Position numbers and translations under genes: made by a program
The notes under the pieces: model-generated
What the model saw: only the letters and a program-made list of their open reading frames with translations
Told to the model about the DNA's origin: nothing
The model's database searches: none
DNA from: a virus
DNA: 46,476 nt
Virus record (IMG/VR): IMGVR_UViG_3300020444_000280
Location: 1-46,476 of that record
Reading direction: 5' to 3' (one strand)
Shown: positions 7,189 to 46,476 of the stretch, piece by piece
How the letters are laid out: the number at the start of each line of letters is the position of its first letter
How positions within the stretch are numbered: the first letter of the stretch is position 1

Positions 7189-7420
7189 GGGTTAAGATAT
7201 ATAGGTTAATAATTCTTCGGTTACGCGCCTCATCGTAGATTTTATCCCAATTAAAGGTCCATTTGGGAACACCCTGGCAAAGACGTATTCCTAAACAGTG
7301 CTGTAAACACAATCCGGGATAGTGCCGGAGTAAATGATCACGCAGAGGCTTGAGTGGGTAGTTCACTCCTGAAATCCAAAGCAGGTCTTCTGCTATGGAC
7401 ACTTTGATTTGAGTCGGCAT
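7172..7420 (-). CDS. Hypothetical early protein, 82 residues
   Basis: A small protein with no recognised family. It starts MPTQIKVSIAEDLLW, is rich in His, Cys and aromatic residues, and has no membrane segment. It overlaps the start of the Erf gene by 17 bases and the 3' end of the first early ORF by 83 bases, a long overlap for this compact operon. Either both are real and translated in different frames, or the upstream ORF is shorter or altered at its 3' end. The regular amino-acid composition and the downstream coupling favour a real gene. Confidence 0.55.
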   Translation of the reverse strand: MPTQIKVSIAEDLLWISGVNYPLKPLRDHLLRHYPGLCLQHCLGIRLCQGVPKWTFNWDKIYDEARNRRIINLYILTHAHTT

Positions 7421-7700: not shown

Positions 7701-7733
7701 GGAAACCGGGGAGGCTTCCGTATTTATCTGCGA

Positions 7734-7763
7734 CAAATCTAGTTTTAGTTTCCAAAATAGAAA
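7734..7763 (-). promoter_or_regulatory. Leftward early promoter
   Basis: On the minus strand a perfect Bacteroidota -7 element, TAGATTTG (7741-7734; consensus TAnnTTTG), is preceded by a 19-base spacer and TTT at 7763-7761 (consensus TTG). Transcription would begin near 7727 and run through the replication and recombination genes. The putative operator dyad (7747-7765) lies within its spacer and -33 region, so bound repressor would block it. Confidence 0.65.
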
Positions 7764-7779
7764 CTTTAAATTTGAAACT
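7747..7779. promoter_or_regulatory. Putative repressor operator
   Basis: Three GTTTC/GAAAC half-sites lie in the divergent control region: 7748-7752, 7760-7764 and 7774-7778. The first two form an inverted repeat with 6-bp arms (AGTTTC / GAAACT) and a 7-base spacer. The third is in direct orientation to the second and abuts the -33 element of the repressor promoter. One dyad over the early promoter and one half-site beside the repressor promoter is a common layout for lysogeny control. The binding protein is inferred to be the adjacent HTH repressor. Confidence 0.5.
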
Positions 7780-7780
7780 C

Positions 7781-7810
7781 TTGTTAAAAAGTTGTTTTTA
7801 GTTATTTTAG
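7781..7810 (+). promoter_or_regulatory. Rightward promoter of the repressor gene
   Basis: TTG at 7781-7783, a 19-base spacer and TATTTTAG at 7803-7810 match the Bacteroidota TTG-N19-TAnnTTTG consensus with one mismatch. The predicted start near 7817 gives a leader of about 33 bases before the repressor ATG at 7850. This would be the maintenance promoter of the lysogen. Confidence 0.65.
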
Positions 7811-7849
7811 CCGAACTTAATCAGTAGTCAACCAACCATTTATACAACC

Positions 7850-8407
7850 ATGAATATATCTCAACGTGCCGTCCGTTTAAGGCAGTTTCTGCAAATAGAA
7901 GGTATCAACCAAGCCCATTTTCTCAAAAAAGTCAAAATCAAGAATGCCTCGCTTTTGGAGGCTTTGAAAGGTGGTGACTTTGGATGGGAGATTGCAGCGG
8001 CTATTAACGAGGCTTACCCGAACTGTAATATTGATTGGCTGATGCACGGGACCGGGAAGATGAGTATGGCAAGTTCAGGTCCTGTTGAACTCCACGAAAG
8101 ATTGAAAGAGATCAGAGTTTCCCTGAACCTTCAAAAGGTGGAAATGGCAAAAATCCTGGAGGTTTCAAAAGCCACCTATTCCAAAATCGAAGGTGGCTAT
8201 CAAAAGGTATCTCTGGAACACGTTATGGCGATAAACAGACACAGCAAGTTACCATTCGCCTATATCATAGGCCAGGAAAATTCAAAAGAGTATACCGGCA
8301 AGGAGTGCCGGGAGCGGCTTGAAAAACTAGAGGAAGATTATGCTACTTTAAAACAGACTTTTCAAATTTTCAGGGAAACGACCAAGGAGAAGCTGACCAG
8401 GAATTAA
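7850..8407 (+). CDS. CI-like repressor with tandem HTH domains
   Basis: A 185-residue DNA-binding protein, the only rightward gene between the integrase and the right-end cargo, placed divergently from the early operon as expected for the lysogeny repressor. It seems to contain two HTH units. The first (about 5-75) is a degenerate one that starts with RAVRLRQFLQIEGINQ and ends NIDWLMHGTGKM, an ending typical of phage CI N-terminal domains. The second (about 80-145) is a clear XRE domain: LKEIRVSLNLQKVEMAKILE and SKATYSKIEGGYQKVSL. The last 40 residues are a probable coiled coil for oligomerisation. No LexA/CI-type peptidase domain is visible, so induction may not use RecA-stimulated cleavage. 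Its stop codon overlaps that of the converging spanin-like gene. Confidence 0.8.
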   Translation: MNISQRAVRLRQFLQIEGINQAHFLKKVKIKNASLLEALKGGDFGWEIAAAINEAYPNCNIDWLMHGTGKMSMASSGPVELHERLKEIRVSLNLQKVEMAKILEVSKATYSKIEGGYQKVSLEHVMAINRHSKLPFAYIIGQENSKEYTGKECRERLEKLEEDYATLKQTFQIFRETTKEKLTRN

Positions 8408-9069
8408 AAGTGGATCAAACTATAATTTAACCCAATCCCTAAATAAGGCTTCAAACCATTTGCAGTGATTCCATACCCCGCCTGCAAACCCAGGGAAAAC
8501 CGTTTATCCGTTTTCGAGATTGCGATATGATCAATCCCCCTGATCTCAGTAGCCGGATTATAGCTAATGCCCTTTAAGTAATAGGTCTTAGGGCCTAAGA
8601 ACCACTTACGGGAATAGTGTTCCACGAAGTTCAGGCTGTCCTTAATTCGGTAAGATAACCGTAGCCCCAGGCTATCATTTTGCAACTTATAAGAACCCCA
8701 TTGCGTTTGGGAAAAGCTCTCCAGCGAAAACTTTAAGGTATCCTTTAAAGGAAGCCATATTGTATCCACCGTTTGAGTGCTTACCTGGGTAATCCCCTCA
8801 ATCTTTTTCCTATTCACTTTCAATTCATCGGCCAGGGTGCGAAGCTTTGTATCATAGAAAGATTGCAGGTGTTTTTTATCGGCCAGGATGCTTTGTTTTT
8901 CTGCAACTGATCTGCCTAATTCATCCCGATAGGAATTCAATTCATAGGTCAGATCAGCATTGGTAAGGAAGGCCTTATCCAGGCGGTTGTTTTGTATCCA
9001 GTTCCAGGATAGACTAGCTATTAGGGCAAGAAGAAGGATAGTGCCGATGATCCGGGCGGTGTTATTCAT
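8404..9069 (-). CDS. Spanin-like envelope protein with outer-membrane-type C-terminus
   Basis: A 221-residue protein, last gene of the late region. Residues 7-26 are a single N-terminal membrane segment (IIGTILLLALIASLSW). About 30-90 are a long helix or coiled coil (YELNSYRDELGRSV, SILADKKHLQSF). The C-terminal 60 residues are amphipathic strands, with RFSLGLQAGYGI and LKPYLGIGLNYSLIHF ending in a terminal Phe as in outer-membrane beta-barrel proteins. This resembles DUF6808-like proteins of Bacteroidota prophages. The layout suggests one chain that spans the periplasm from the inner to the outer membrane, i.e. a unimolecular spanin with the reverse anchor of the known lipoprotein type. The function is inferred from topology and its place in the lysis cassette. 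Confidence 0.6.
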   Translation of the reverse strand: MNNTARIIGTILLLALIASLSWNWIQNNRLDKAFLTNADLTYELNSYRDELGRSVAEKQSILADKKHLQSFYDTKLRTLADELKVNRKKIEGITQVSTQTVDTIWLPLKDTLKFSLESFSQTQWGSYKLQNDSLGLRLSYRIKDSLNFVEHYSRKWFLGPKTYYLKGISYNPATEIRGIDHIAISKTDKRFSLGLQAGYGITANGLKPYLGIGLNYSLIHF

Positions 9070-9751
9070 AGATCAGGTTTTCGTGGGTCGTAAGTAATGG
9101 CCGGATACGTTGAGCCGCATTCAGAACCTTCATATTCAGATTGGGGTCCGTCCTGTCCGGGTAACTTTCAGGAAATTCAATACTCAGGTATAGAGTAGCG
9201 GAAGGGGTGCTTTTCAGATGAACGGCTAGTATGGCACCCGTGCCAATGTAATTCAGGTATTCCGCGGTTTCAGATTTATACAGGGAAGAGTATTCCTGAA
9301 CGTCCTCCACGTAATAAATCCCGTAGCGCAACACCTGGGCATAAAACCAGTTGAAACCTTCAAAGAGTTCTCTGCCAATCCAATCCGACTTGCTAAAATC
9401 TGCAGGGGTGCTGTGGGTTTCAAACAAGAGTGTTATTTGGCGGGATTCCCCGGTAGCCGGGACCCCTCCGTGGTTATGGATGGCATAAATACCAATAATG
9501 TGATCCAGTCCAATCTCATTGCGCAAGTTGTTCAGATGCTCATAGATCAGGTGACCGTCTAATACGGCTTGTTCAGCCTTACGGATACGATCTTTCACCA
9601 ACCTTTCTTTCTCCAACTCTTCAAAGCGCAGTTTCCTGGCTTCAATCCAGAAGTTAGCGATCACCTGAACCGTTCCACTAGCCAGGACAATAGACAAAAC
9701 AGTTACCCAGGTAGGGAGGGGGCGAGAAGGTTTCTTATTTATGGGTTCCAT
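9062..9751 (-). CDS. Membrane-anchored lysis-cassette protein of unknown function
   Basis: A 229-residue protein. Residues about 13-35 form one membrane segment (VTVLSIVLASGTVQVIANFW), followed by a charged helix (EARKLRFEELEKERLVKDR) and a globular domain of about 165 residues. The pattern of that domain (HIIGIYAIHNHGG, ITLLFETHST, GTGAILAVHLKS) recalls GAF-like sensor folds, but this is not certain. It overlaps the spanin-like gene by 8 bases and the endolysin gene by 13, so it is coupled to lysis. A pinholin, an anti-holin that senses a signal, or a lysis timer are possible roles. No family is recognised. Confidence 0.6.
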   Translation of the reverse strand: MEPINKKPSRPLPTWVTVLSIVLASGTVQVIANFWIEARKLRFEELEKERLVKDRIRKAEQAVLDGHLIYEHLNNLRNEIGLDHIIGIYAIHNHGGVPATGESRQITLLFETHSTPADFSKSDWIGRELFEGFNWFYAQVLRYGIYYVEDVQEYSSLYKSETAEYLNYIGTGAILAVHLKSTPSATLYLSIEFPESYPDRTDPNLNMKVLNAAQRIRPLLTTHENLIYE

Positions 9752-10746: not shown

Positions 10747-13700
10747 TCAGTTTGTCCACTCCCTCCTGAAACGGTCACTCGGACTGAACCCGGCCTTTTC
10801 CAATTCATTCAGGAGCTTTTCAAACTCCCTTGCACTCATATTGTCGCGGTAGGCTTTCAGGTAACCGGCAGCCGCTTCCGGGTCGTTCTCATAGAGTATG
10901 GTACGGGCTTCCCGGCTCGCGTTCTGTAGTTCCATACCCCGTTTAAAACGCTCTACCAATCGTTCCTTATGTTCAGCCGGTACCTCATCGGATTGCAGCC
11001 AGCTTTCCAGGCGATCCCAGGCCCCGGCTTCTCCATCCTGAATATCTTCCCGGTATTGTTCCAGTTCTTTATTGAGGCGTAAGGTTTCGCCCTTTTCCAG
11101 GTTGCCGATCTCTTCAACCGCCTCCTGATCAGTGCGCCTGTAGGTAGTGCGAACGTGTCTTCTGAATACGTTTTCCAGCCAGTTCTTTCCAAGGTCAGAG
11201 CCATCAAAGAAACCATAATGCAGGGCCAGCTCTGCTATATTGGTCAGGGGGTGATTCTCAGGATCAGTAAAGACGTTGGCAAAGGCTTCCCTGGCCCTTT
11301 CCGGTGAGAGTCCGGTGGCTTCCCCCAGGGCTTTCCAAGGTTCCGGGGTATAGGCATTGTATTCCAATTCTTCAAAGCCTTCTACCATCTGCGAAGCTGG
11401 TACGATGGGTTTGTCCAGGAAGTAGTCTTTGTTTTCGGAATAGGACATGGCCGCTTTAAGAGTAGGAGGCAGGTTTTGGCCTGGCTCTGTAAAATCTATG
11501 GGAATAAGGTCGGCCAGGGCCGAGCGTGCGTTATTCCATACCTCCAGCATTTTGGCCTCATCGGTTCCCGCCCGGTATAAATCCTCGTAAAGGGTTGTTA
11601 AAGGTGCCAGTTCGTGACTTTTGGGAATGGTGAAATAACGGTATTCCCCGTTTTCATCTTTCCAGGGTGTGGCAATGATGAAATTCTTCTCGCGTATCTT
11701 AGGGTGAATACGGTCCTCCAGGTCGGGTATTTGGTTCTTATTCCATTCGTACAACAACATGGTCAGAATACCTAGTTGCGCTTGCTTCCAGATAAAGGCA
11801 GAGGGGTTCTTTTTGGCGTGTTTGATCCCTGAACGCGTACCCTGTATTGCAGCATTGAAATAGGGCAGGAAATTATCTAGTGACTTGGACACATGACCAC
11901 CCTGGTTAAAGTCGATAAAATTCCTTGCTTCATGGGTAGCCCTGAACTGAATGGCCTTTTGTTCCTGGTCGTTCAGTTCCCGGTTTTCGCCCCGGCTTTG
12001 AAGTTCCTTTTGCAGGGCTTTGGTCTGGTTCTTTATGGAGCGATCACGAAGGGCCAGCCGCATTACCAATTCACTGCTTTCACCCAAATACGAGATCATT
12101 TTTCCGACCTCATTCCAATACGATTTGACCGTTTTACTTTGACCCTTGCCGGCCTTGACCATCCCCTGGGTAGTTAAGAAGTTCATTAAAATCCCTTCTT
12201 CCACCGCCTTGGAGTAATTAGGGCGCTGCATGGTCCTGGCTCCGATGTTCTTTCCAATATCACTCATTAGCTGAATAGCGGCCAGGGGGAGGTGAGAGCT
12301 GTAGTGATCCGTAAAGAATAGCGAAAAGCCCACATCCCTGGCAAAGTTGGCGGCAGCAAACAAGGGGTTGTAACCGGTTGCCATTGCTTTAAGGACTTTA
12401 ACCCCGCCCACGATCTGAATAGCATTGGTCAGGTAATCATCGGTGATGCCTTTTTTCTTATCCCTTAGCTGGTTCGCCATTTCAATTGGCATTTCCACAG
12501 CATACTTCTGACCATCGCGGTACAAGGGAACGATCTCATGGCCCGTAGAACTTTCTTCCGGGTACTGAAGAGTGCCGTAGCGGTCTTTGCCGATAGGTTC
12601 AACTATCTTGAAAATACCGTTGTCGGAATGCTCAGAAGCAAGATCGTATATAGCTTTAGAAGCGCGGTTGACCGCAATGCGTTTAAAGGTGGATTTAGCC
12701 GCATTGGATAAAAGCCATTCCGAGTCGTTATACAGCAGTTTTTCAGAACCACCCTTCAAACCACGCACACCATTGGAGCCAGCTATTTTGCCTTGTTGCC
12801 CGGCAATTTCCCCTTTCAGTTCATCATCAAAGAGGTGATCTATGTAAAAGCGGGGGGAGTATTTAAAGCGGTGTAATTCCTGGGCCTGGGCATCATTTAG
12901 TAAACCCTCCTTATGAAGTTCCTCTACTAACTGCTTTTGATAATCAAAGTACTTATTGGCCCGGCCCATCAGGTCCTTGAAATATTCGGGCTTTTGCAAC
13001 TGCATATAATCCAACCACGCCTGACTTTGATCCGGGAGAAGACCACCCTCATATTCCAGGTCGGCATATTTATCCCTGCGCTCCTGGAGTTCTTTGAGTT
13101 CAGACTTGTCTTTTTTAAGTCGCCCTCGCAGTTGTTGGAGTGCCTTCTGGTTTTTAGCGGACAGGTTAATTCCAGAGTTTTCCAAAGTTTCCAATTGCGT
13201 CCGGGTTTGCCGGATTTGCGTTTGAAGGCTCTCTATCTCCGGTTCCACCTCGTTCAATACTTCCTGGGCTTTCAGACTGATTTCCACGTTTCGTACATGG
13301 CTGATCATATCGTTCAAGGTGCGGTAGCTTTCCGGGGTTAAACCATTATCCAGTTTGGGCCTTAATGGGTTTAGGCTAACGCCCCAAAGCTCCTGGAATG
13401 CTTTAGAGGTGAACTGTTCAGCCCTTCCCTGTGAACCTGCTGCCAAGTCTCGCATGGTTACCACATCTTCGGCCAGTTCTTTAACCTTTCGGGTAGCTCC
13501 CTTACTAATCTCTTTAAGGTTCTGGTTGAAGAGCGCTGCACGATTGGTAAAGGCCTGTTCAAATTGTATGCGGGTACGTTTATTCAGTCCTAACTTTTGA
13601 GACTTGTAGATGTCTTTCAACTTTTGTTGCCGTTGCATATTGATGGCCTCTACCTTTTGATAATCTTCCCGGAGAGGATCAGAAACCAATTCCGGTAGAG

Positions 13701-16700
13701 GGGTTAACCTGGGGTAACTTGGAGAAAGATTTTCGGTATTGGCTTCATTCAAACTTTTTTTTGATCGACCAAGCGGAATTTCAGGGTCCGAATTCCGAAG
13801 GGTAGTTTGGATACTATGGATCAAGTCGCCTAATGATGTATATTCCCTGACCTCCAAATCTTCAAGGGACTTACCCTGCTCGTTGAGCCGGTCAAAAAGT
13901 GATGAAATACCCAGGCTTCTGGCCATATCCTGAATGGTGCTTTTCCATCCTTTGGTTTGCTTTAAACGACCCGAAAGACGATCCGAAACCAGGGCCGTAA
14001 ATGCAGCACCGGCTACTTCCTGGGGGTTCTCCAGTTGGCCGTCCGTTACCTTGCCGTGTTGTTCGGTGGCCCACTGGAAGTAGCCTTCAGCTTTGGCTTT
14101 ATCCTCTTCAAAAAGCGGGTCTTTCATTTTAAATTCATCCGCTTGTTTCAGGAGTTCTTGAAAGTGATCCTGGTCTTGGTTCTCCAATCGGGTTAGTAGG
14201 TGCCCGGCCAACTCATTGTAAAGCTGTTCGCCACCTTCCGAACCTTTCGTGACAAATAGGGTGTTGGTTTCTGGTATATAGCCCTCAGAGTTGTCCCAAT
14301 ATTCGCCTTTGATTTCCGAAAGAGCTAATTGCATTTCCGAAGGTGAATCAAATACTTCAATATTCATCCCAGGAACGATTTGCAGCACATCTTTGATCAG
14401 GCGGTTGGTTTTCCGGGAACCGGTTTTCAAGTTTTGGATATTCTCACCTGTGTACACCTTGCCACGGCTGGTTCGCTGCCGATCTGGTACGGTCTTCATT
14501 GGAATGCGAAACTGGCTTTTCAATTCGGCTTCCAACAACTTTAAGCGAGTTCGTTCCCTTTTCAATAACCGCTCTTTTCTACCCTGGTAAAATCCAGAAT
14601 TCAGCTTATGGTCAATATCTTCCAGGCGGTTCCGTACAGCCATGTATTCACCCCCTGCGGAAGGATCACCTTTTACTTGGTTTAGTGCCTCCATCAACTG
14701 TGTGTCTTCCGGCTCCAGGGCATAATCCGGGGCCAGTAATTTTTTGATCTGATCGTCCAGTTCTTTGGTTTTCTCTTCTACATCTTTGACAAATACATCA
14801 TCCTTGCCTTCTACGGTGCGTTGCAGTTGCTTTTTCTGATAGAGCAGGGAGAAGATTTGCTGCCTTCGGGCTTCGGGTATGTTCTCAGGAATAGTGATTG
14901 CCGTTTCACGCATGGTACTGATCTTGTCCTGAAGATCTATTTTCTGTTCCTGGCTCAGGTCTTCCCGCTTTTGAATTTCAGAACTCAGAAGTTGGAAGCT
15001 CTGATCATCGGTAGCAAAATCCATAGCCAGATGGTAGCCATCCCTGGAAGTGGCCGACAGTTGTCCCAGGTTCACGGTACCCCCCAGGAAAGCACCGGCC
15101 ATCAGTCCTGATTTGGCATTCTCATACGCCTTTTGCCACATTTCAGGGGAGAACATACTCGGAGCATTCAGGCGTTTTTCACCTTCCAGCAGGTTATAGG
15201 TATTTTGAATACCATCAAAGGCGATGGACTGTAAGCCTTCCGTTACCCCTTCGATCAGTCCTGCCTTACCGGTTTCCACCATGAATTCTTTACCGCGTTT
15301 TGCCAGTTCTTTAGCCAGGATACCAGACGGTACAAACTCCCGGATACCGGTTTTGATGGCTTCCGCTTTCAGCCGATCCTCTGCAATTTCAAACACCCCT
15401 TTTTTGATCAGGTAGTCGATCACCTGGGATTTTAGTTCGGTACCCAGGAGCTTTTTGGTCACCTGATCGGCACCAAACTTTTCCAGACCGGCATAGATCA
15501 GACCGGTAGCTGCCCCCAATAGCCGGGCATCCTTATCATCAATGCCCTGTGATTTGGCCGATTGGTACATTTCATCGGCACCCATCCCGAAGCCCATCGC
15601 CAGGGCACCGGTACCTCCGGTAAGGTAACCAGCCGCTACAATGGAAACCATTTGGCCGGTAGCTGTCCCCAGGGTTTTTGCGGTATCCTGGTTTACAATT
15701 CGGTCAGACTTATAGTTTGTCCGGGAACCTTCCAAAGAAGCCTGATAGAGGTCGTCCCCAATCCTTTCCAGGGCTTTGGACCACTTTTCCGTTTCCGCAT
15801 GAGGTACACCGGTAGCCATATAGACCCCTAAAGAGCCGGGTTGTCCTAAATGCGGGGCCAGCTTCACCCCTTCACCGATCAGGTAGAGTAGGGTGGAACC
15901 GGCAGAAGCCAAGTATTGAGGTGTTTTGTTGATCTCATCCCCCGCAGCCCGGAAAAAGGTTTCTACTGAATGAGCATATTCCCCGTTGGCATCCGATTGA
16001 AGGCTTTGAATGCGCTTACTGGCTAAAAGGGCTTTGGTTTGGTAGTCTTCTACCAATGCCTCATAGTTCTGCTTTTGTCGTGCAAAGCTGTTTACCAGTT
16101 CTTCCCGTTTGGCCGGGTCGGTTTCCTGCTCAAACTGAGTGTTGAGTTCCTGGAAGGTTTGACTTATTTCTTCAACCTTGTTTTCCGTCCGGGTGCGCAG
16201 GGCCTCCAGCTTTTGTTCCTCCCGTTTCGCGTGACGACTTAGGTAGAAACCGGCTGCGTTCTCGTTGGGACCCACCTCATAGAAACCGGGGCTGACCAGT
16301 TGCGATTGAAGAAATTCCTGATCCTCTTCGGTCAGGTCTTTTTTACGCCCGATCTCCAGGACTTTGGGGTCCACATTTTCCGCATGGAAGTAATGCTTTT
16401 CATTCCAGAACGAACCGGGATCACTTAGGAATTCGATACGCTTTTGATCCGGTTGGCCGGTGATGTTGTCCTGAACGGGTAGTGCCTTTTGGGATTGCTC
16501 AAGACCAAACTTTTCAAGTTCGGTCAGGGCTTGTTCAGGTTTTTCCTGATCAGGGCTTTCTTCCACGTTCTGAATCCCCAAGAAGTCTTCAAAAGTGGTG
16601 GCATATTCGGTTTGTTTATTCTTTGAACCCGCATTGTAATCCAATGAATAGTCGCCATCGACCGATTTGGAGGGTGATTCCGAGTTTTCCGCTGGCACGG

Positions 16701-16935
16701 GCCCGTTGGGTAGGGTCTTTTTTTTTTGAGGTGCGGGAGTGGTGTAGCTGGCTTGCCATTCTTCAAAGGAAGGCTGCACCTTTATTTTATCCGAGGAAGC
16801 CAAAGCAGTATATAGTTTGCGGCTGCGCTCCGGGTCGGAAAGGATGGCTTTGAAACGGTCAAAGTTGTTTTCGATCTTAAAATGCGGTGAGCTGACCAGG
16901 GCATTAAATATGGCCTGTGCTTTTTCTTCGTTCAT
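10747..16935 (-). CDS. Giant virion-associated protein, 2062 residues (LPD38-type region)
   Basis: A very large protein, probably packaged in the virion and ejected into the host, like the giant internal proteins of podoviruses. The N-terminus (1-75) has a short repeated helical motif (ALVSSPHFKIENNFDRFKAI). About 100-400 are charged and coiled. Around 430-500 is a Gly/Ala-rich hydrophobic stretch (GYLTGGTGALAMGFGMGADE) that could insert in membranes. Long coiled coils follow, e.g. ETLENSGINLSAKNQKALQQ near 1240. The region around 1650-1900 (FIDFNQGG, YFNAAIQGTRSG, FIIATPWKDENGEYRYFTIP) resembles the large polyvalent protein domain LPD38. No peptidase, transglycosylase or RNA polymerase motif was seen. 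It lies between the ejection-like 549-residue gene (3-base gap) and the lysis unit. Confidence 0.75.
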   Translation of the reverse strand: MNEEKAQAIFNALVSSPHFKIENNFDRFKAILSDPERSRKLYTALASSDKIKVQPSFEEWQASYTTPAPQKKKTLPNGPVPAENSESPSKSVDGDYSLDYNAGSKNKQTEYATTFEDFLGIQNVEESPDQEKPEQALTELEKFGLEQSQKALPVQDNITGQPDQKRIEFLSDPGSFWNEKHYFHAENVDPKVLEIGRKKDLTEEDQEFLQSQLVSPGFYEVGPNENAAGFYLSRHAKREEQKLEALRTRTENKVEEISQTFQELNTQFEQETDPAKREELVNSFARQKQNYEALVEDYQTKALLASKRIQSLQSDANGEYAHSVETFFRAAGDEINKTPQYLASAGSTLLYLIGEGVKLAPHLGQPGSLGVYMATGVPHAETEKWSKALERIGDDLYQASLEGSRTNYKSDRIVNQDTAKTLGTATGQMVSIVAAGYLTGGTGALAMGFGMGADEMYQSAKSQGIDDKDARLLGAATGLIYAGLEKFGADQVTKKLLGTELKSQVIDYLIKKGVFEIAEDRLKAEAIKTGIREFVPSGILAKELAKRGKEFMVETGKAGLIEGVTEGLQSIAFDGIQNTYNLLEGEKRLNAPSMFSPEMWQKAYENAKSGLMAGAFLGGTVNLGQLSATSRDGYHLAMDFATDDQSFQLLSSEIQKREDLSQEQKIDLQDKISTMRETAITIPENIPEARRQQIFSLLYQKKQLQRTVEGKDDVFVKDVEEKTKELDDQIKKLLAPDYALEPEDTQLMEALNQVKGDPSAGGEYMAVRNRLEDIDHKLNSGFYQGRKERLLKRERTRLKLLEAELKSQFRIPMKTVPDRQRTSRGKVYTGENIQNLKTGSRKTNRLIKDVLQIVPGMNIEVFDSPSEMQLALSEIKGEYWDNSEGYIPETNTLFVTKGSEGGEQLYNELAGHLLTRLENQDQDHFQELLKQADEFKMKDPLFEEDKAKAEGYFQWATEQHGKVTDGQLENPQEVAGAAFTALVSDRLSGRLKQTKGWKSTIQDMARSLGISSLFDRLNEQGKSLEDLEVREYTSLGDLIHSIQTTLRNSDPEIPLGRSKKSLNEANTENLSPSYPRLTPLPELVSDPLREDYQKVEAINMQRQQKLKDIYKSQKLGLNKRTRIQFEQAFTNRAALFNQNLKEISKGATRKVKELAEDVVTMRDLAAGSQGRAEQFTSKAFQELWGVSLNPLRPKLDNGLTPESYRTLNDMISHVRNVEISLKAQEVLNEVEPEIESLQTQIRQTRTQLETLENSGINLSAKNQKALQQLRGRLKKDKSELKELQERRDKYADLEYEGGLLPDQSQAWLDYMQLQKPEYFKDLMGRANKYFDYQKQLVEELHKEGLLNDAQAQELHRFKYSPRFYIDHLFDDELKGEIAGQQGKIAGSNGVRGLKGGSEKLLYNDSEWLLSNAAKSTFKRIAVNRASKAIYDLASEHSDNGIFKIVEPIGKDRYGTLQYPEESSTGHEIVPLYRDGQKYAVEMPIEMANQLRDKKKGITDDYLTNAIQIVGGVKVLKAMATGYNPLFAAANFARDVGFSLFFTDHYSSHLPLAAIQLMSDIGKNIGARTMQRPNYSKAVEEGILMNFLTTQGMVKAGKGQSKTVKSYWNEVGKMISYLGESSELVMRLALRDRSIKNQTKALQKELQSRGENRELNDQEQKAIQFRATHEARNFIDFNQGGHVSKSLDNFLPYFNAAIQGTRSGIKHAKKNPSAFIWKQAQLGILTMLLYEWNKNQIPDLEDRIHPKIREKNFIIATPWKDENGEYRYFTIPKSHELAPLTTLYEDLYRAGTDEAKMLEVWNNARSALADLIPIDFTEPGQNLPPTLKAAMSYSENKDYFLDKPIVPASQMVEGFEELEYNAYTPEPWKALGEATGLSPERAREAFANVFTDPENHPLTNIAELALHYGFFDGSDLGKNWLENVFRRHVRTTYRRTDQEAVEEIGNLEKGETLRLNKELEQYREDIQDGEAGAWDRLESWLQSDEVPAEHKERLVERFKRGMELQNASREARTILYENDPEAAAGYLKAYRDNMSAREFEKLLNELEKAGFSPSDRFRREWTN

Positions 16936-24773: not shown

Positions 24774-25928
24774 TTAATTTGGTATTCTCAATAAGCCCTG
24801 AGTAAATAATTTTTCAATAGTGGATTTAATTTGATCTCTATCATCTGACAGTTGGAGCATCTTTTCAAAATCTAATACATTCGTTTCTTCGCTGTATATA
24901 TAGTCAATAAGCGGGTTCATTGAAGGAGGTAATTTTATCAAAGTCCTGGGTGCAGTCAAAAAAGTAACTGTTTCAGTTTTCTTTATGTGAATTGGTGTTC
25001 TTGATTTTACAACGTCATTCTTAGATATTTCTGAATATTGATTTGAGAAGATATGATAGGGGTAATTAAATACTGTGCGATTTTTCATTTTTGAAATTCG
25101 CCATTGCATAAAAGAATCATAAATGTCTTGACTTTCCATAATTTGGGAAAAGGAAGAAGCCATTTTTTTAAGGTATTCTTTAGATTTCTCTTCAGATGCT
25201 GTTGTTAATGGGAATGCACTTCGAAATAGTGGTATTTCCCTGACTTCATTGGATAACCAATTTAAAAAGTCTATCCCTGTTCGTACAAAAATTGCCAATG
25301 TCAAATGAACAGATAAATCATTTCCCTCCGCAATTACTTCGTGCCAGTGACCTTTAGGTACATATAAAACATCACCTTTTTCAAGAATGCAATCTAGGTA
25401 TAGCTCATCTTCTGGCGGCTTATCATTGATCGCGTGACTTTTCAAATGAAAAAGGGGCTGCTCGATAGTTGCAGGATATACTTTCCAGCGCTTTTTACCA
25501 TAAAGTTGTATAATGAGGAAGTCGTGCGTATCATAATGCAGGCCAAATCCTCTTATTGAGGGATATGAAATATATAGGTTGGAACGAGTATTCTCTCCAA
25601 GTTCACTTTCGATTGAGTCATGAAGCCTACCCAATTTAATATTTGTCCGATCAAAGTCTTCTGCGATTAGTGTTGCACCATTCTGTGTGTTTTGAACAAT
25701 ATCAAACGTATCACTGAAGTTAACGGGTTGTCGATCTTTAAACATTCTGAAACTACTTTTCAGATCCTTGGAAGTAGAGGTGTTCAAAGTGTCATTAATG
25801 TCTTGCCAAGTTATTAAACTATCAAATTTGGTTGGTACTCCTTTTATGAGGTAGGCTTTGTTATTGTAGATGTTTTCTGTGAACTCGCGTACTGTTAGAG
25901 GGTTGATAAGCTCTTTGAATGATTGCAT
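24774..25928 (-). CDS. JmjC/cupin Fe(II)/2-oxoglutarate-dependent oxygenase
   Basis: A 384-residue protein of the JmjC/cupin_4 type (relatives hydroxylate ribosomal proteins or RiPP precursors). The double-stranded beta-helix spans about 110-215. The metal triad is visible as His131 and Asp133 (GLHYDTHDF) with His196 in VPKGHWHEV (His194 is the alternative). Lys/Arg in LYGKKRWKVY fits the conserved strand. The C-terminal 75 residues (LPPSMNPLIDYIY to EKLFTQGLLRI) look like the winged-helix end typical of this family and resemble peptide-binding RRE/PqqD-like folds. It probably hydroxylates a peptide or protein side chain. The gene lies 79 bases behind the 53-residue peptide gene, separated by an attenuator hairpin, and is more A+T-rich than the flanking phage genes. 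Confidence 0.8.
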   Translation of the reverse strand: MQSFKELINPLTVREFTENIYNNKAYLIKGVPTKFDSLITWQDINDTLNTSTSKDLKSSFRMFKDRQPVNFSDTFDIVQNTQNGATLIAEDFDRTNIKLGRLHDSIESELGENTRSNLYISYPSIRGFGLHYDTHDFLIIQLYGKKRWKVYPATIEQPLFHLKSHAINDKPPEDELYLDCILEKGDVLYVPKGHWHEVIAEGNDLSVHLTLAIFVRTGIDFLNWLSNEVREIPLFRSAFPLTTASEEKSKEYLKKMASSFSQIMESQDIYDSFMQWRISKMKNRTVFNYPYHIFSNQYSEISKNDVVKSRTPIHIKKTETVTFLTAPRTLIKLPPSMNPLIDYIYSEETNVLDFEKMLQLSDDRDQIKSTIEKLFTQGLLRIPN

Positions 25929-26302: not shown

Positions 26303-28189
26303 TTAATCTTTAATACACCGGCATGAATAGCCAAAGTATTTATCCCAAATTAAGGGGTTTAAGTATTTATGATCATATTCAAGGAGTACTGAAAATGCCT
26401 CACTGGAATTTTTACTGCTGTTGCTCCAGAATCCTGCTATTCGCCCAGGATAATCCCCCTCATTTGGTAAAATGCCTTGAAATATTCCAGCTGGGAATGC
26501 CGAAAAGTCACATGAATTTGTTGCACCGGTATTTGGAGGTTCCCATAAATTGGTAACTTTCATCTTACCACCAGCCAAGGGCCATCCTCCTAGATGGGTT
26601 GAAAGTGTTTCCCATTCACTTTCAGAGGGTATGTGCCATCCATTAGGACATAAGTTTCCAGTATTTACCGCATACCAATTATATAGTAAGCCTTGAACTC
26701 CATCAAAGACACCCTGAAAATTTTCATCATAAAAGTGCTCATCGTAGTCAAAATATTTACCAGATGTGGCTGCCGCCCATTCAATACCATCTGTAAATAT
26801 GCCGATACTCCCACCGTTATTGTAACGCTTAGTACCCAAATTTTCACCCATCCAACATTGATTTCCAATTTTTACAACCGGATACACGTGCCCATCAATA
26901 TCGGCCACTGTAGCTGGACAAACGATACATTCATCAATATTGTTAGCCATCACGCTGTAGCAGGTGTCAAAGGCTTCATCATAATATATCCATTGAGCAG
27001 TTAGCGCACTGATATTAGCTGCATTACCAAAGACTGATAATCTCTTTTCAATAAATTTATAATATCGCGACATATTTGAGAAAAAGGGCAAATGAGGTAA
27101 TTCCTGCTTCAAACAAGATGTTATATTCTCTACAAAATCCATAGCGGCCCGTGAAGCTAACTGAACGCCTGACGCTCCATTGATATTGGGAATAGTATTA
27201 ACATAATCATATATATCTAATGTGAGTTGGTAAATACAATCCTTGTTTCCCCCTAATTTTAAGTTTGGTAAGAAAGGTTCAAGAATATAAATAGCTATTT
27301 GCTTGCAATTTGCGAATAAGGCCTTATCATATTCATCACTACCATCATCATAGCCAATTAAGCCAGTCCTCATTTTTAATTCAAAATCTCCGTCACCCTC
27401 CATCCTGAATTCCTTTACCAATTGAGTACCAGTACCCCATCCACCACCACTTAAAATATCTGAAATGGAGTTAGGGTAAGCCTTTACACCCTCTACTAAA
27501 AAGTCTTCAATCAATATCTGGTCCTTGTAAATGCCGACTGCTGTTGTAAATAGTTTACCATCGTTGTAAAACTTAAGATCCCGTCCGTTCTGATTAAATA
27601 GAATAGGGGGTTCGGTTACCATTGTCTTAAATGACCCTGCATTTATTAAGGCGTTCTTTAGTTCATTAACCAGTGCAGTATTTGTTGTGTCAAATAAATC
27701 CATACCGGCTTCTACACTGAGTCGCACTTCCATTTCCAGGTTTACCAGTTCGGCATCTTCCTGGACCTTTTTTATAAGGGCTTCTTTTCCAGTTTGGGAA
27801 AGAGATAGAGCAATGGGGGTATTCATCAACAAGGCCAGGGCCGTTGATTTAACTGATATGGTAGTAGTGGTTTGACCAGGAATATTATAACCCATCATCA
27901 AAACCTTGCCTTCAGTATTAGTTAGCATTGTGGTATTGTAGGCTTGTGTGAAGGCATCAATATTATAGGTGCTTTGAGATACATTAGTTTCTGCAATTGG
28001 GGAAAGTACTTTTAAGGTATTCAAACTGATCGCACTGCCGGAAGGCAACTCAATATGACCAGTGATAGGTTCTGGTTTAACAGGAGTCTCGGATGGAGTT
28101 GCAGTACTATTTTTACTATCCTTTTTACATCCTGCTAGATAAAGGCTTAAGGATAAAAAAAATAGGAATAAAAGATGCGGTGTTTTCAC
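26303..28189 (-). CDS. FISUMP-domain surface lipoprotein
   Basis: A 628-residue secreted lipoprotein. The N-terminus is a lipoprotein signal peptide with lipobox LAGC (Cys21), followed by KKDSKNST. A Lys/Asp-rich start just after the Cys is typical of surface-exposed lipoproteins in Bacteroidota. About 30-410 are of unknown fold. The C-terminal 180 residues (VYPVVKIGNQCWMGENL, GLLYNWYAVNTGNLCPNGWH, SESEWETL and a final SCRCIKD) are a FISUMP domain. It is the first gene behind the strong terminator at 28304-28325, so it would need its own promoter; none is obvious in 28190-28303. It is far from virion genes in composition and is likely a cargo gene expressed in the lysogen, for example to alter the cell surface or block superinfection. 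Confidence 0.75.
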   Translation of the reverse strand: MKTPHLLFLFFLSLSLYLAGCKKDSKNSTATPSETPVKPEPITGHIELPSGSAISLNTLKVLSPIAETNVSQSTYNIDAFTQAYNTTMLTNTEGKVLMMGYNIPGQTTTTISVKSTALALLMNTPIALSLSQTGKEALIKKVQEDAELVNLEMEVRLSVEAGMDLFDTTNTALVNELKNALINAGSFKTMVTEPPILFNQNGRDLKFYNDGKLFTTAVGIYKDQILIEDFLVEGVKAYPNSISDILSGGGWGTGTQLVKEFRMEGDGDFELKMRTGLIGYDDGSDEYDKALFANCKQIAIYILEPFLPNLKLGGNKDCIYQLTLDIYDYVNTIPNINGASGVQLASRAAMDFVENITSCLKQELPHLPFFSNMSRYYKFIEKRLSVFGNAANISALTAQWIYYDEAFDTCYSVMANNIDECIVCPATVADIDGHVYPVVKIGNQCWMGENLGTKRYNNGGSIGIFTDGIEWAAATSGKYFDYDEHFYDENFQGVFDGVQGLLYNWYAVNTGNLCPNGWHIPSESEWETLSTHLGGWPLAGGKMKVTNLWEPPNTGATNSCDFSAFPAGIFQGILPNEGDYPGRIAGFWSNSSKNSSEAFSVLLEYDHKYLNPLIWDKYFGYSCRCIKD

Positions 28190-28352: not shown

Positions 28353-31300
28353 TCAATACAAACTATGCGTTGTTCCTGAATGGTCTTTATAGACCAGGGC
28401 CGATTGATCCGTAGAATAATACAGAAAGTTATTAGGTGCAGCACTGTCAGTTGAAGTCGGCATTATAAATACCAAATCTTTGGGAGGGTATACTGCCCAA
28501 TTATTATTGGTGGTTCCATCTTTCAGGTAATAGCTTTCATGGGTCCCGGAAATGACTACCACCATACCATTGACCCGGAGGTCATTGGGTATGGCATCCC
28601 GGTGGGCCAGGGTTGGTACCTGGTGTAAACCACCCCAACCAAAATCCGAATAATGAGTAGGGTAGGTGTCCTGGGGGTCATTGCGAACAATAGGTGCGAT
28701 GATGGCCGTACCGGTGCGATTGCCTTCAACTACTTCCTGTACGCTTAGTGTTACAGTATTTGAAGCAACAGTTCCTTCCGAATTATAAACCTTTACCCGG
28801 TATTGATAGCCATTTTCAACGAGCGTGGCCGTCAGGGTATAAGTGCTTTCGGTAGCCCCTGAAATATCAGCCCATCCCGATCCGGTATTCAACACCCATT
28901 GATAAGAGGGGGCGGGGCCTCCAGTTGCAGCAACTGTAAAGCTAACTGCCGTATTTTCAAAGACAGATTGCGAAGCTGGCTGCGTGGTGATCTGCGGGGC
29001 AAAGGGTTCTGAGGTCACGGTAAGGTCTGCTTCATCAGAAGTCACACTTCCCTCACTATTGGAAACGTTAGCACGGTACAGGTTCCCATCATCGGCTAAG
29101 GCAGCAGTAAAGGAATAAGTAGAAGATGTGGCCCCGCTAATATTGGCCCAACCTGATCCGGTATTCACTTCCCATTGATAAGCAGGTGCGGGGTTGCCGG
29201 TTGCAGCCACCGAATAAGTGGCCGTATTGTTTTCAAATACCGTTTGGGCGGCAGGCTGGTTGGTGATCTGCGGGACACTGAGGGCTGCGTTTACACTTAG
29301 GTTGACGGCATCAGAATACAGACTGCCTTCCGTATTGTACACCCGCACGCGGTACTGGTTACCGTCCTGAGACAGGCTGGCCGTGAAGGTGTAGGTAGCA
29401 GAAGTCGCCCCGGATACTTCAATCCAGGAAGAACCCGAATTGACCTCCCACTGGTAGGAAGGTGAAGGTTCTCCGTTGGCTGTCACGCTAAAGCCTACTG
29501 AATTGCCCTCGGTTACCGTCTGATTGGTGGGTTGGGCCGTGATCAGCGGAGGGGCGTTAGCGGATTCCACAGTAAGGGTTGCAGGATCAGATGTGTCAGC
29601 ACCAACGGAATTTGAGGCAATAACCCTATAGATATGCTGATCCTGTGAAATGGTTGGAGTATTATAATAGATACTGTCAGTGGCCCCGCTCAAAGTAGTC
29701 CAAACCAAACCATCAAAAACTTCCCAGGAATACACCAGATCAGGGAATGCCGGAGGCGCGTAGGAACGAAAAGTCACCTGATCTCCTTCGGTGATGGTCT
29801 GATCCTGGGGGTGGGTTATGAACTGCGGAATAGAGCCTACGGAAACGAAATTCGCTTTTTCGGAAAAATCCTGGTCGCTTGTTTGAGAATTACTCCCGAT
29901 AAAACGGAGTGTAAATACTTTAGCTGAATCCGAACTATCAAAGGTCAGGTCTACAATGGAGTCATTATAGGTAGCTGTCACTATACCATCTTCAACGATC
30001 TCAAAGGTGCGCACATCAATATCCTGGGAAACATCAATCAACTGAATGGTGGTTCCTGGTACAACCCCAAAAGGGGAAGTCTGGACTTCACCATTTAGAA
30101 GTACCTGGAAATCGGCTTGCGCCTCTATAGGAGCAATCCCCTCCATATCAAAAGCACCGGCATCTGAAGTAGTATCCCTGGTATAATGGCGGTTATCCAA
30201 TTCCGGCATCAGGCTTTGTTCTCCGAAATCACGCGCCCCGGACTCCAGGCCGTCTATAGCTGTAGTTTTTAGGTGCCAGTTTTCCACATTGGTCAGGTAG
30301 TTTGAGGGATCATTTTCCCGGAACCCGATGGCGTTGTCATTGGTCACATTGTAGTCGAAATACAGGGTATTCAGCTCCTGTCCTTCATCCGTCATTTTAG
30401 TCAGTCCGGTATAATAACCGTTCAGTACCCCTTCACCGATCCATACCGCCCGGCTTGGATTATGATTATGGTGGTATTGGTTGTAGTCCGCAAAAAGGTT
30501 CTGACCGGGCACCAGGTCAGGCGTTCCGCTCAGGTTGATAAAACCAATCGTAAGGTAATTATCCGAACGTACAATGTTGTTGTAGAAAAACAGTGAGTCA
30601 ATGCTGTAAAGCTTGAAAAGATAACTTCTGTTCTGATCCCTGCCGTAGTCAATAAAGGTGTTGTTTGTTATCCGAACCGAACCATTACCATCTATATATA
30701 AAATGTCACCGGTGTTGTTGATGGTAAAGTTGTTTTCAATTTCAATATAACCGTCCCCGTGAGGGCTTTCCTGGGAAAAGTAAATGATGGAAGAGGGGTT
30801 GGACGGGTTACCGCTACCACCCCCGAAAAAGGTATTCCTGCGGATGAAGGTACTGTCGGAACTGTTAACCGAAATTGCGTTGCGTGTGGCGTTAAAGAAC
30901 GTACAATCCTCAATGATAAAGTTGTTGGCTTCCTTCATTAAGATGTGAGAGGTGCCTTCTTCGTTTGGTGAAGTGGCCGAGGTGGAAAACGTACATTTTC
31001 GGATGGTCACATTGAAAAGCTTATCCAGGGGATCAGGTGACCCTAGGCGGTAGCCCCCGTATTCACAGGAGGAAATAATCACGTTTTCAAAAAGGATATC
31101 CTTCACGTTATTGATAATCCGACAACCCACGTACCCGTTTCGAATGGAGGCATTGGTAAAGGAAAAGTTTGACATTTCCAGGGGATCTTCCGAGGTGTTG
31201 TTTCCGGTGATGTACAGGTGAGCCGAATTCCCATAGGTGCCAAAATCCGGATCGTAACCATCCGGTTCGGTATTCCGCAGGTTCACCCGGTCAAAATGGA

Positions 31301-31631
31301 CGTTCACCATATTGGAAATGCGCAGGCAGTTATTGGCCGTATCGCCACCATCAATAAATACATTATTACCCAGGCCACGCACATCCAGGCGGTAACCGTT
31401 GGTGAGGTAATCGCTGTTGCTTTGGGTGCCGTAGTTGATGATCACCACCCTTTCATAGTAGACCCCGTTTTCAATGTTGATCTCGGTGTCTTCAGTCAAT
31501 CCACCGTTTAAAAGGGCATCGTCAATAGCGGCCTGGATGGTGGTAAATTCTTGTCCGGTATTTACATTATGGACCTGAGCGAGTAGGCCGAACGGGAGCA
31601 GTGCTCCTGTCAGCAGAAGTAATTTTCTCAA
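28353..31631 (-). CDS. Tail spike with parallel beta-helix, four Ig-like repeats and a signal peptide
   Basis: A 1092-residue protein. It begins with an apparent Sec signal peptide (MRKLLLLTGALLPFGLLAQ). About 20-500 are a right-handed parallel beta-helix of the pectate-lyase type (TTIQAAIDDALLNGG, repeated NNTF/FENV rungs). About 600-960 are four tandem Ig-like repeats of about 90 residues, each with PQITxQPxxQTV, SYQWEVN-type and YRVxVYNxEG motifs. The last 120 residues (IAPIVRNDPQDTYPTHYSDF, VYKDHSGTTHSLY) form a tip like those of receptor-binding proteins. It is probably the enzymatic or binding spike that contacts host glycans. No C-terminal type IX secretion domain was seen. A signal peptide is odd for a virion protein. 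Confidence 0.7.
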   Translation of the reverse strand: MRKLLLLTGALLPFGLLAQVHNVNTGQEFTTIQAAIDDALLNGGLTEDTEINIENGVYYERVVIINYGTQSNSDYLTNGYRLDVRGLGNNVFIDGGDTANNCLRISNMVNVHFDRVNLRNTEPDGYDPDFGTYGNSAHLYITGNNTSEDPLEMSNFSFTNASIRNGYVGCRIINNVKDILFENVIISSCEYGGYRLGSPDPLDKLFNVTIRKCTFSTSATSPNEEGTSHILMKEANNFIIEDCTFFNATRNAISVNSSDSTFIRRNTFFGGGSGNPSNPSSIIYFSQESPHGDGYIEIENNFTINNTGDILYIDGNGSVRITNNTFIDYGRDQNRSYLFKLYSIDSLFFYNNIVRSDNYLTIGFINLSGTPDLVPGQNLFADYNQYHHNHNPSRAVWIGEGVLNGYYTGLTKMTDEGQELNTLYFDYNVTNDNAIGFRENDPSNYLTNVENWHLKTTAIDGLESGARDFGEQSLMPELDNRHYTRDTTSDAGAFDMEGIAPIEAQADFQVLLNGEVQTSPFGVVPGTTIQLIDVSQDIDVRTFEIVEDGIVTATYNDSIVDLTFDSSDSAKVFTLRFIGSNSQTSDQDFSEKANFVSVGSIPQFITHPQDQTITEGDQVTFRSYAPPAFPDLVYSWEVFDGLVWTTLSGATDSIYYNTPTISQDQHIYRVIASNSVGADTSDPATLTVESANAPPLITAQPTNQTVTEGNSVGFSVTANGEPSPSYQWEVNSGSSWIEVSGATSATYTFTASLSQDGNQYRVRVYNTEGSLYSDAVNLSVNAALSVPQITNQPAAQTVFENNTATYSVAATGNPAPAYQWEVNTGSGWANISGATSSTYSFTAALADDGNLYRANVSNSEGSVTSDEADLTVTSEPFAPQITTQPASQSVFENTAVSFTVAATGGPAPSYQWVLNTGSGWADISGATESTYTLTATLVENGYQYRVKVYNSEGTVASNTVTLSVQEVVEGNRTGTAIIAPIVRNDPQDTYPTHYSDFGWGGLHQVPTLAHRDAIPNDLRVNGMVVVISGTHESYYLKDGTTNNNWAVYPPKDLVFIMPTSTDSAAPNNFLYYSTDQSALVYKDHSGTTHSLY
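28720..29850. repeat. Four tandem Ig-like coding repeats
   Basis: Within the spike gene four consecutive units of about 265-280 bases encode related Ig-like domains; the last three are the most alike (GSGWANISGATSSTYSFTAA against GSGWADISGATESTYTLTAT). The three most similar copies suggest recent duplication or gene conversion, and such repeats could expand or contract in number. Confidence 0.65.
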
Positions 31632-43875: not shown

Positions 43876-45567
43876 ATGAAGAAGTATCGCCCGTCACTAC
43901 TTGAACACGAAAAGCAGGAGTTAAAGAGCTTGTCTAAGCTTAACTTCTCCAATTACAAGGAAACTGATGTTCGTGAAGAGTTTCTTAGACCTCTTGTTCG
44001 TATTCTTGGCTATAAAAAAGAATCTCAATACTCTGTTTCAACTGAAGATGGGTATAAACTTCACCCTTTCTTTCTTTCCGTAGGTCGAACCAGGGTTGAG
44101 TTGGATTATCTGTGTAGTATTCGTAAACAATATTTCTGGCTGATTGAAGCAAAGCCTGGGAAATGTAAAAATCCCAATAATCCTCCCGAAATTAAAGCCA
44201 AGGAAATTGAGCAAGCTTATTTTTATTCGCTTCACCATGAGGTTAATTGTCCCTATTTCATTGTTTCAAACGGATGGTTTACTAATCTATATTCTAGGGA
44301 TGAGATTGATGCAGAAGGAACACCGGTATTGAGCATTCCACACCATGAAATAGCGGATCGGTTTATGGAGTTAGATGGCTACGTTGGAGCCACCCAGATA
44401 TTACCATTTCTAAAAGAAAAGATCCTGCAACAAATTAGGAAGACCTTATCCGCAGAAATTGTGGTGGATCGGTTGTCAGAATTCCATGATGAGGTTGAAA
44501 AGGCCCTAGCATCTGTAAAGCCAAAGGTCAGGGAAAATTTACGACCAATTGTAGACCAGAAACCTCACATACACCAAAGTTTGGTGGATATGATCCGCGA
44601 TCCTGAAATCAAACTTTTTCAGATTGTATCTCAGTTATTTGATGGGCCGGCACCGCGATATTACCTCAAACAAGTATCTGAAGAAGTTTCAAGTAGGATT
44701 ATGAGTGATGAAGTGGAAAGGGCTCCCAGCCGATCAGCCCTTTTCTTTAGTCAACTCTTATTGACTGACAAAACTTACAGTGTGAGCCATAATTTCTATT
44801 TCAATGTTCTGTACTTTCTTTTGTATTTAAGAGGCAGAGGTATTAATGCCATCTATGCTTTTGGTAAGGGTCGTGATCCATTGGACTTTGATGAGGCATT
44901 GAAAGGATACTTGGATTTGACCTTGTTTCATCTTAAACCTAACGAAGTGCAAAGGGTCTTATGGCTGGTTGAGAGAGAGACGGAAGGCTTTGTTAAACTA
45001 TTTATCACTCTGCATAAGGATTCACGCGACAGTATTATTACTAATGTGGAACTCAAGAAATACTTTCTTGAGGAAATCAATCTGGTGTTTAATTCTGGCT
45101 CAGGTCATGCTAAGGTTGAGCTAGTTGAGAAAATCATGTCACATGCTATGTCATCATTTTATCAAAAATACACCAGCAAAGACGGCAGAGAGTTTCGTGT
45201 AAATCTGGCGAAACAAGAGCTAAAGTCCTTGAGACAGCGGAATAAATCAGCAATTGAGAGTAATAAAGCCTTGTACCATCAGGTGAATAAAGAACTTGGT
45301 GACTCCTGGCAAACTTTTGAGTGGGGTATTATTCAAGATGAATGCGCGGATAGTTTGGGCCGGGGAATATGCGCGGTGTTGAATGAATTCCCGGATCATT
45401 GCAAGGAATTACTAACTCAGGATCACAAAGACAGGCTACGGCACTTGGCATCGTTGGGGAATTATAGCTTCGCAGAAGAGCTATGTACAAAGCTGGACCT
45501 TAGCTGGAAAAAAAACTTGACGGATAAGGAAAGGACTGAAGGACTAAAGGCCCTATTTGAAATTTGA
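43876..45567 (+). CDS. HsdR-N-like PD-(D/E)XK protein, candidate defence gene
   Basis: A 563-residue protein. The first 170 residues resemble the N-terminal nuclease domain of type I restriction R subunits and related DUF proteins: DVREEFLRPLVRILGY (Glu35), then ELDYLC (Asp77) and LIEAKPGK (Glu91-x-Lys93), which is a PD-(D/E)XK site. The remaining 390 residues are mainly helical, with no Walker or DEAD-box motif, so it is not a full HsdR. It lies alone on the plus strand beside the right attachment site, a usual place for accessory genes in temperate phages. A -7-like TATTTTAG lies at 43859-43866, 9 bases before the ATG, without a clear -33. The next gene starts 2 bases after its stop. A role in anti-phage defence is inferred. 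Confidence 0.65.
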   Translation: MKKYRPSLLEHEKQELKSLSKLNFSNYKETDVREEFLRPLVRILGYKKESQYSVSTEDGYKLHPFFLSVGRTRVELDYLCSIRKQYFWLIEAKPGKCKNPNNPPEIKAKEIEQAYFYSLHHEVNCPYFIVSNGWFTNLYSRDEIDAEGTPVLSIPHHEIADRFMELDGYVGATQILPFLKEKILQQIRKTLSAEIVVDRLSEFHDEVEKALASVKPKVRENLRPIVDQKPHIHQSLVDMIRDPEIKLFQIVSQLFDGPAPRYYLKQVSEEVSSRIMSDEVERAPSRSALFFSQLLLTDKTYSVSHNFYFNVLYFLLYLRGRGINAIYAFGKGRDPLDFDEALKGYLDLTLFHLKPNEVQRVLWLVERETEGFVKLFITLHKDSRDSIITNVELKKYFLEEINLVFNSGSGHAKVELVEKIMSHAMSSFYQKYTSKDGREFRVNLAKQELKSLRQRNKSAIESNKALYHQVNKELGDSWQTFEWGIIQDECADSLGRGICAVLNEFPDHCKELLTQDHKDRLRHLASLGNYSFAEELCTKLDLSWKKNLTDKERTEGLKALFEI

Positions 45568-45569
45568 CT

Positions 45570-46307
45570 ATGGAGTACTTTAATATTGAGATTAAAGGTC
45601 GAGAAATGAGGCCGGGTTACATTGTGTATGTCGTACAGTTAATACATCCAACGTTTGGAGTTTACTTTTATGTTGGGCAAACCGGTGATAGAAAGTACAC
45701 AACTGCGAGGCCTGCTTTAAGAAGATTCGCAGGTCATCTTAGCGACAGAGGCTATGTTACCGAGAACCAGGTTTACAGGGCTGTGGCAGTTAAAATACTT
45801 GGATTTGAAGAAGGTAAAAATAGAAAGGCCTTTTCAAAGGAAATAAAGCAAGGCGTTTCGGAATTTTTTGACCGGGCTAAAACAGTAATGCATGTTGGAG
45901 GTATAGGCTCAGGTTGTGTGGGGAAGGTTACTCATAATTGTGCAATATTTTCACTAGAGCAGGCCATGCTTGAATGCCTCACTCTTGGAGTTAAGGCGGG
46001 CGTATCTCCAAAGGCAATGGTGAAGGTTTTTCAAAAAGCTGCTTTGGGGCGTAATATGGGTCTTCACGTTAGGCTGCCGGCCACCTTATTCAAGGGAGAT
46101 TTTGAGGCTAGATTCGCTCTTAGTATTGCTCACAAGGATATGTTATTGGCTAAAGAGATGGCACAAACCCACGATGTTCCAATGGCCGTTACTGATGTCA
46201 CTGAGAGAGCAATGAAGGAAGCCGTCGATCGGGGTTGGGAAAATTTGGATAGCTCGATATTCTTGACTCTGCAAGAAGAACTTGCAGGAGTTGAAATAAG
46301 GATTTGA
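45570..46307 (+). CDS. GIY-YIG-like protein fused at the prophage junction to a host dehydrogenase C-terminus
   Basis: The reading frame has two unrelated parts. Residues 1 to about 100 look like a GIY-YIG nuclease: GYIVYVV (16-22), FYVGQTGD (33-40), then Arg52 and His56 (RRFAGH). From about residue 106 it matches the C-terminal domain of the 3-hydroxyisobutyrate dehydrogenase family (NAD_binding_11): VMHVGGIGSG, catalytic Lys119 in GSGCVGKVTHN, then KAGVSPKAMVKVFQKAALGR and FALSIAHKDMLLAKEM. The NAD-binding Rossmann half is missing. The switch falls around 45860-45885, the probable right attachment site. Thus the prophage appears to have split a host gene and joined its own nuclease gene in frame to the remnant. 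ATG at 45570 follows the upstream stop by 2 bases; a TTG at 45564 is possible. Confidence 0.65.
   Translation: MEYFNIEIKGREMRPGYIVYVVQLIHPTFGVYFYVGQTGDRKYTTARPALRRFAGHLSDRGYVTENQVYRAVAVKILGFEEGKNRKAFSKEIKQGVSEFFDRAKTVMHVGGIGSGCVGKVTHNCAIFSLEQAMLECLTLGVKAGVSPKAMVKVFQKAALGRNMGLHVRLPATLFKGDFEARFALSIAHKDMLLAKEMAQTHDVPMAVTDVTERAMKEAVDRGWENLDSSIFLTLQEELAGVEIRI
45860..45890. other. Predicted right attachment site (attR) region
   Basis: The boundary between phage coding sequence (GIY-YIG-like part) and host-gene coding sequence (dehydrogenase part) lies here, judging from where each protein family stops and starts. The core cannot be defined because the matching left copy is before base 1. Everything after it (the dehydrogenase 3' end and a converging partial gene) is inferred to be host. 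Confidence 0.5.
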
Positions 46308-46329: not shown

Positions 46330-46476
46330 TTAGACTTTCTGGAATTCCCGTGTCGAAGCTATCAAACCAAAAATATCTGCGATTCGCTGCTCCCCTGAAG
46401 GGTCATGGATGTCTATGGGTCCATCTTTGACCACGTGCGTTAACAATCCATCCCTTGTGTCCGTAGAGGCTTTTAA
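46330..46476 (-). CDS. 3' end of a host gene (partial)
   Basis: A minus-strand frame is open from the window edge to a TAA at 46332-46330, giving the last 48 residues of a protein (DGPIDIHDPSGEQRIADIFG, ending STREFQKV). It converges on the dehydrogenase remnant with 22 bases between the stops, the arrangement expected for two neighbouring host genes. The family is not recognised and the open frame is short, so it may be chance. Confidence 0.4.
   Translation of the reverse strand, partial: LKASTDTRDGLLTHVVKDGPIDIHDPSGEQRIADIFGLIASTREFQKV

Follow-up and report, generated by a model that had tools for sequence, protein, structure and literature searches.

Sites for tyrosine integrases within protein-coding genes are unusual yet known, an example being dnaJ2 of Bifidobacterium, in which prophages use an attB at the 3′ end of the gene and dnaJ2 is reconstructed after integration (PMC6109161). 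The attP of the Myxococcus phage Mx8 is situated within the integrase gene (int), and integration supplies a host-derived 3′ end with which the integrase stays active, its specificity being altered (PMC6070905). In mycobacteriophage BPs and its relatives, immunity is integration-dependent, and the repressor, on being shortened by 33 residues, becomes stable and active (PMC4557955; PMC9934374). The remodelling of phage genes by an internal attP is already known; what differs at the locus described here is that the in-register partner is a host enzyme gene, and no phage gene and host enzyme gene meeting in register are described in the open-licence papers that were found.

The locus lies close to the right end of the window, by which we mean the whole stretch of viral DNA that was analysed (46,476 nt; IMGVR_UViG_3300020444_000280). 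It resembles Mx8 int/attP in that a phage coding gene contains an internal attP and would receive a new host-derived 3′ end on integration, but the phage gene is GIY-YIG-like and the sequence joined to it, in frame, is the 3′ half of a conserved host enzyme gene. As in BPs, the attP is located in a phage gene and the virus and prophage forms of the protein differ at the C-terminus; here, however, no repressor is concerned, and the protein acquires a foreign domain at the cost of its predicted active-site Glu. With the Bifidobacterium dnaJ2 prophages the locus shares a tyrosine integrase and the location of attB within protein-coding sequence of the host, whereas here the host gene is cut between two domains and attR does not reconstruct it. 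The case is a clean one, in that the putative attP and attB fall in two unrelated coding genes, in the same frame and at a host domain boundary, and both the integrated and the phage-type junctions are present in public data with identical flanks.

The chimeric open reading frame

The chimeric ORF runs without interruption from an ATG at 45570 to a stop that ends at 46307 (+ strand; 245 aa, or 247 aa if the overlapping TTG at 45564 is the start), and joins a GIY-YIG-like N-terminal part to a dehydrogenase C-terminal domain. Directly upstream, and separated from the ATG by two bases, is a 563-aa gene (43876–45567, +) that is weakly similar to HSDR_N_2 (E 0.005) and in which an EAK motif can be read. 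Residues 1–102 of the chimera (45570–45874, +) are the phage-derived, GIY-YIG-like part, as indicated by 100% identity with a second viral contig and by a profile of relatives (both below). The 3′ part (45897–46307, +) derives from a host beta-hydroxyacid dehydrogenase gene: Pfam NAD_binding_11 matches residues 115–232 of the 247-aa form with an E-value of 2.4e-19 over profile positions 1–117 of 122, and the catalytic Lys segment, GIGSGCVGKVTHN, can be read in the sequence. NCBIfam and PDB matches concur in pointing to the 3-hydroxyisobutyrate / 2-hydroxy-3-oxopropionate dehydrogenase group, of which the C-terminal part only is represented.

A beta-hydroxyacid dehydrogenase comprises a Rossmann domain and a helical domain with the Lys, and the former is missing from the chimera, in which a Pfam scan detected no N-terminal NAD_binding_2 domain; the N-terminal half of the dehydrogenase was also not found anywhere else in the window. 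On the nuclease side, the catalytic Glu expected after the Arg/His part is absent, Glu135 and Asn153 of the intact phage form having been replaced by dehydrogenase sequence. Because it is without the predicted nuclease Glu and without the whole NAD-binding domain, the chimera would probably be inactive both as a nuclease and as a dehydrogenase.

The phage-type junction and the shared core

The chimeric ORF was used to retrieve a viral contig of 25,928 bp (IMGVR_UViG_2788500342_000001, hereafter G001) that carries the phage-type (attP) junction. The two sequences are 100% identical over 22,790 bp (window positions 23107–45896) and split exactly at 45897, with zero identity past 45896. The original observation is confirmed, the ORF belonging to the phage through position 45896 and to the host thereafter. 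In G001 the GIY-YIG-like ORF is intact and continues for 77 further residues past the junction, such that the virus form (186 aa from the ATG) and the prophage form (245 aa) of one protein differ by way of the internal attP. The original prediction had claimed a single frame passing from a GIY-YIG-like phage part into a dehydrogenase C-terminal domain, the catalytic Lys in the captured part and a different C-terminus for the nuclease-like protein in the non-integrated form. All of this is borne out by the identity with G001 up to the junction and the NAD_binding_11 domain after it, by the readable Lys segment, and by the 186-aa form.

As expected of an attR, the change-over occurs at a short sequence that is identical in attP, and the element encodes a tyrosine integrase. 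The shared core, GGCTAAAACAGTAATGCATGTT (45875–45896, +; 22 bp, identical in the window and G001), encodes AKTVMHV (residues 103–109), a heptapeptide common to the phage gene and both host relatives at that position. It is single-copy in the window when up to three mismatches are allowed, and an exact search of the viral contigs with 21 of its bases returned G001 only. Where the core begins on the left is inferred by comparison with the host relatives, both of which encode AKTVMHV like the phage gene. Within attP, the arms AAAACA (45879–45884) and TGTTTT enclose an 8-bp spacer (45885–45892). Inverted arms around such a spacer are the expected layout of a tyrosine-recombinase crossover site, and the spacer is likely the region of strand exchange.

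Downstream of the intact gene, G001 encodes a 424-aa protein of no assigned family, a weak RES-domain protein and a phage RuvC-like resolvase (PHROG_159, E 1e-22); these three genes occupy positions 6597–9227 of the G001 left-arm sequence L002, outside the window. The tail that bears them is 3,138 bp long, with a GC content of 0.403 vs 0.466 elsewhere. The replication and recombination set of the window includes a single-strand binding protein, a primase/helicase, a RecE-like exonuclease and an Erf-like annealing protein, and no resolvase was detected among the ten window proteins scanned. Because a resolvase is found in the tail and none among those ten proteins, the tail is probably the phage left arm that is missing from the window record, although the gap to base 1 is unbridged and the GC content is lower.

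The window itself starts at the ATG of the tyrosine integrase gene (1–1524, +), and the record is devoid of host flank on the left. The integrase is recognized by PHROG_1 (E 9e-14) and by readable R, HxxR, GH and Y motifs, its Pfam Phage_integrase score (22.8 of 27.1 bits) being under the cut-off. Integrase relatives were not detected in 247 genomes of the order, and attL was not found in the viral contigs with the core, the integrase or the intact dehydrogenase as queries.

The host gene and its chromosomal flank

A genome search through the class of Chloroflexi MAG SP267 and then the family located two dehydrogenase genes, in genomes G395 and G376, that are the closest to the 142-aa host part (82 and 75% identity, respectively). 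Both genes are intact and read DAMAKTVMHVG.IGSGCVGK at the position of the core. The sequence there is ILDAMAKTVMHVGAIGSGCVGK in G395, VLDAMAKTVMHVGPIGSGCVGK in G376 and FFDRAKTVMHVGGIGSGCVGK in the window. Differences between the core and G395 are confined to third codon positions. In the SP267 homologue the Rossmann (NAD_binding_2) match extends to residue 161 and is followed by the helical (NAD_binding_11) match from residue 164, which places the core at the domain boundary.

Beyond the dehydrogenase stop, positions 46330–46476 (− strand) encode the C-terminal end of a host gene whose product we take, from our own reading of the protein, to be of the DUF1800 type; it is convergent with the dehydrogenase gene as in G395, and matches the G395 protein with 57% identity over 44 aa (E 7e-17). 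The dehydrogenase homology together with this synteny indicates that the right flank is chromosomal. The prediction of an attR inside a host dehydrogenase gene whose 3′ end was captured in frame is upheld by the exact departure from G001, the host flank and the synteny with G395, and by a frame that stays unbroken to the stop. The host is a Chloroflexota bacterium; the species was not among the 250 genomes of the order that were searched (best DNA identity 70%).

Identity of the GIY-YIG-like gene

The N-terminal part gave zero matches in Pfam, PHROGs, NCBIfam, PADLOC, PDB or phages, and the complete 186-aa protein was not matched by any Pfam model. A GIY-YIG-like character is suggested by the motifs GYIVYV, YVGQTGD and R..GHL, which are visible by eye, and by a profile of three relatives that scores the phage protein at ∼20–23 bits (E 1e-8 to 5e-8, in a test set of four sequences only). 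The first relative was a weak plasmid match in Thioclava (E 0.4), and the others were found by later sequence and profile searches, the third, from the Chloroflexota class, by a profile search. The alignment of the four sequences exhibits a GIY-like strand, YVG.TGD, an Arg and a His, and beyond the core the C-terminus of the G001 form aligns with the C-termini of the relatives (LE..L...VLN). By analogy with the family, Glu135 of the 186-aa form is likely the catalytic Glu; it is kept, along with Asn153, in the G001 form and lost from the chimera. The predicted structure of the intact protein has a pLDDT of 42 and is too poor for use. With the one protein as query, 400 genomes from the phylum yielded no relatives, and no close relatives of the gene were found in the viral contigs.

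In Thioclava the relative is flanked on one side by a restriction subunit S gene and on the other by a DEAD/DEAH helicase gene that adjoins a methyltransferase, in what is a type I restriction locus, and the Agrobacterium relative adjoins a DNA methyltransferase gene. Because relatives of the GIY-YIG-like gene sit in or beside restriction systems, this gene and the 563-aa gene before it may together form a restriction-like module that the phage carries at the edge of the prophage.

Integration model and alternative explanations

We consider it very probable that the ORF spans the attR of a Chloroflexota prophage, the integrase having joined an attP in the GIY-YIG-like gene to an attB between the dehydrogenase domains. 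In such a mechanism the tyrosine integrase would act on the 22-bp core that attP has in common with the dehydrogenase domain boundary, recombining the two copies, and, because both genes read the core in the same frame, two reciprocal in-frame fusions would be generated. The attR product combines the N-terminal part of the nuclease with the dehydrogenase helical domain, and attL would encode the dehydrogenase Rossmann domain followed by the 77-residue nuclease C-terminus (FPIRDFDF...ELV). The most likely consequence would be the loss of both parent proteins in the lysogen and the return of both on excision, which implies that the GIY-YIG-like protein would be complete only in the non-integrated phage. 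Restoration of the dehydrogenase on excision, which the original prediction had foreseen, would be consistent with these data.

A junction formed by amplification or assembly, with phage and host DNA joined at a short repeat, is extremely unlikely. Chimeras arise at short repeats in amplified single-cell DNA, and could have formed if the source were an amplified single cell, but for two genomes of these sizes chance would yield ∼0.015 exact matches of 22 bp; moreover, the repeat belongs to an open gene of the phage itself, next to inverted arms, in an integrase-bearing phage, and encodes a heptapeptide that is conserved in the host relatives. It is hardly credible at all that the 3′ part of the dehydrogenase was carried by the phage as cargo, i.e. 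as an auxiliary or captured gene, and is not chromosomal flank. Although this part is inside the limits that the virus predictor set for the record, the adjoining gene is the host DUF1800-type gene in the same synteny as in G395, and we rejected the cargo reading on the grounds that G001, identical up to the junction, is without the dehydrogenase part.

New enzymes are a less likely explanation of the fusions than a mere side effect of where the phage integrates. A frame match arises by chance in ∼1 in 3 cases for same-strand genes (1 in 6 with the strand free), so that an in-frame fusion alone is no argument for selection. It is very unlikely that the chimera functions as a new protein, with the helical domain serving the nuclease part as a tail for dimerisation or regulation in the lysogen; the uninterrupted frame, the capture of NAD_binding_11 as a whole and transcription that could come from the upstream phage gene would suit such a protein, but it would lack two residues of the GIY-YIG-like family, the predicted catalytic Glu and the Asn, and a search for a second example of the fusion gave none. 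Selection for an in-register core, with the nuclease off in the lysogen (catalytic Glu lost) and on after excision and the dehydrogenase switched in parallel, is possible though unlikely; it would resemble integration-dependent immunity. It would accord with an attP within coding sequence, with a core that separates the Arg/His part of the GIY-YIG-like protein from the Glu/Asn part, with an attB between NAD_binding_2 and NAD_binding_11, and with precedents (PMC4557955, PMC6070905). Against this, the case consists of a single phage with a single integration, the viral contigs yielded no close relatives of the phage gene, and agreement in frame by itself has the chance probability given above. 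That lysogeny amounts to a reversible two-protein switch, the core being kept in register, the nuclease off and the dehydrogenase altered in the prophage and both restored on excision, we regard as quite improbable. Should related phages prove to keep the frame, proteins of virus and host could exchange domains reversibly by way of site-specific integration; otherwise the locus still documents how in-frame virus–host fusion genes arise, and calls for caution in the annotation of such fusions.

Other genes of the phage

A large protein encoded at 28353–31631 (−) matches Ig-like domains in three places and includes a stretch of beta-helix, and a tandem DNA likeness of ∼68% is observed within its gene at 28852–29412. 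Nearby are genes for a JmjC/cupin-type protein (24774–25928, −; JmjC_2, E 8e-25) and a Fib_succ_major-domain protein (26303–28189, −), whose presence inside the phage suggests unusual cargo or structural genes. DUF6808 and DUF6549 are families known from Bacteroidota and their phages, and both are matched by the product of 8404–9069 (−) in this phage, whose host flank is of Chloroflexota. Finally, a protein of 2062 aa encoded at 10747–16935 (−) bears an LPD38 (large polyvalent protein) domain.
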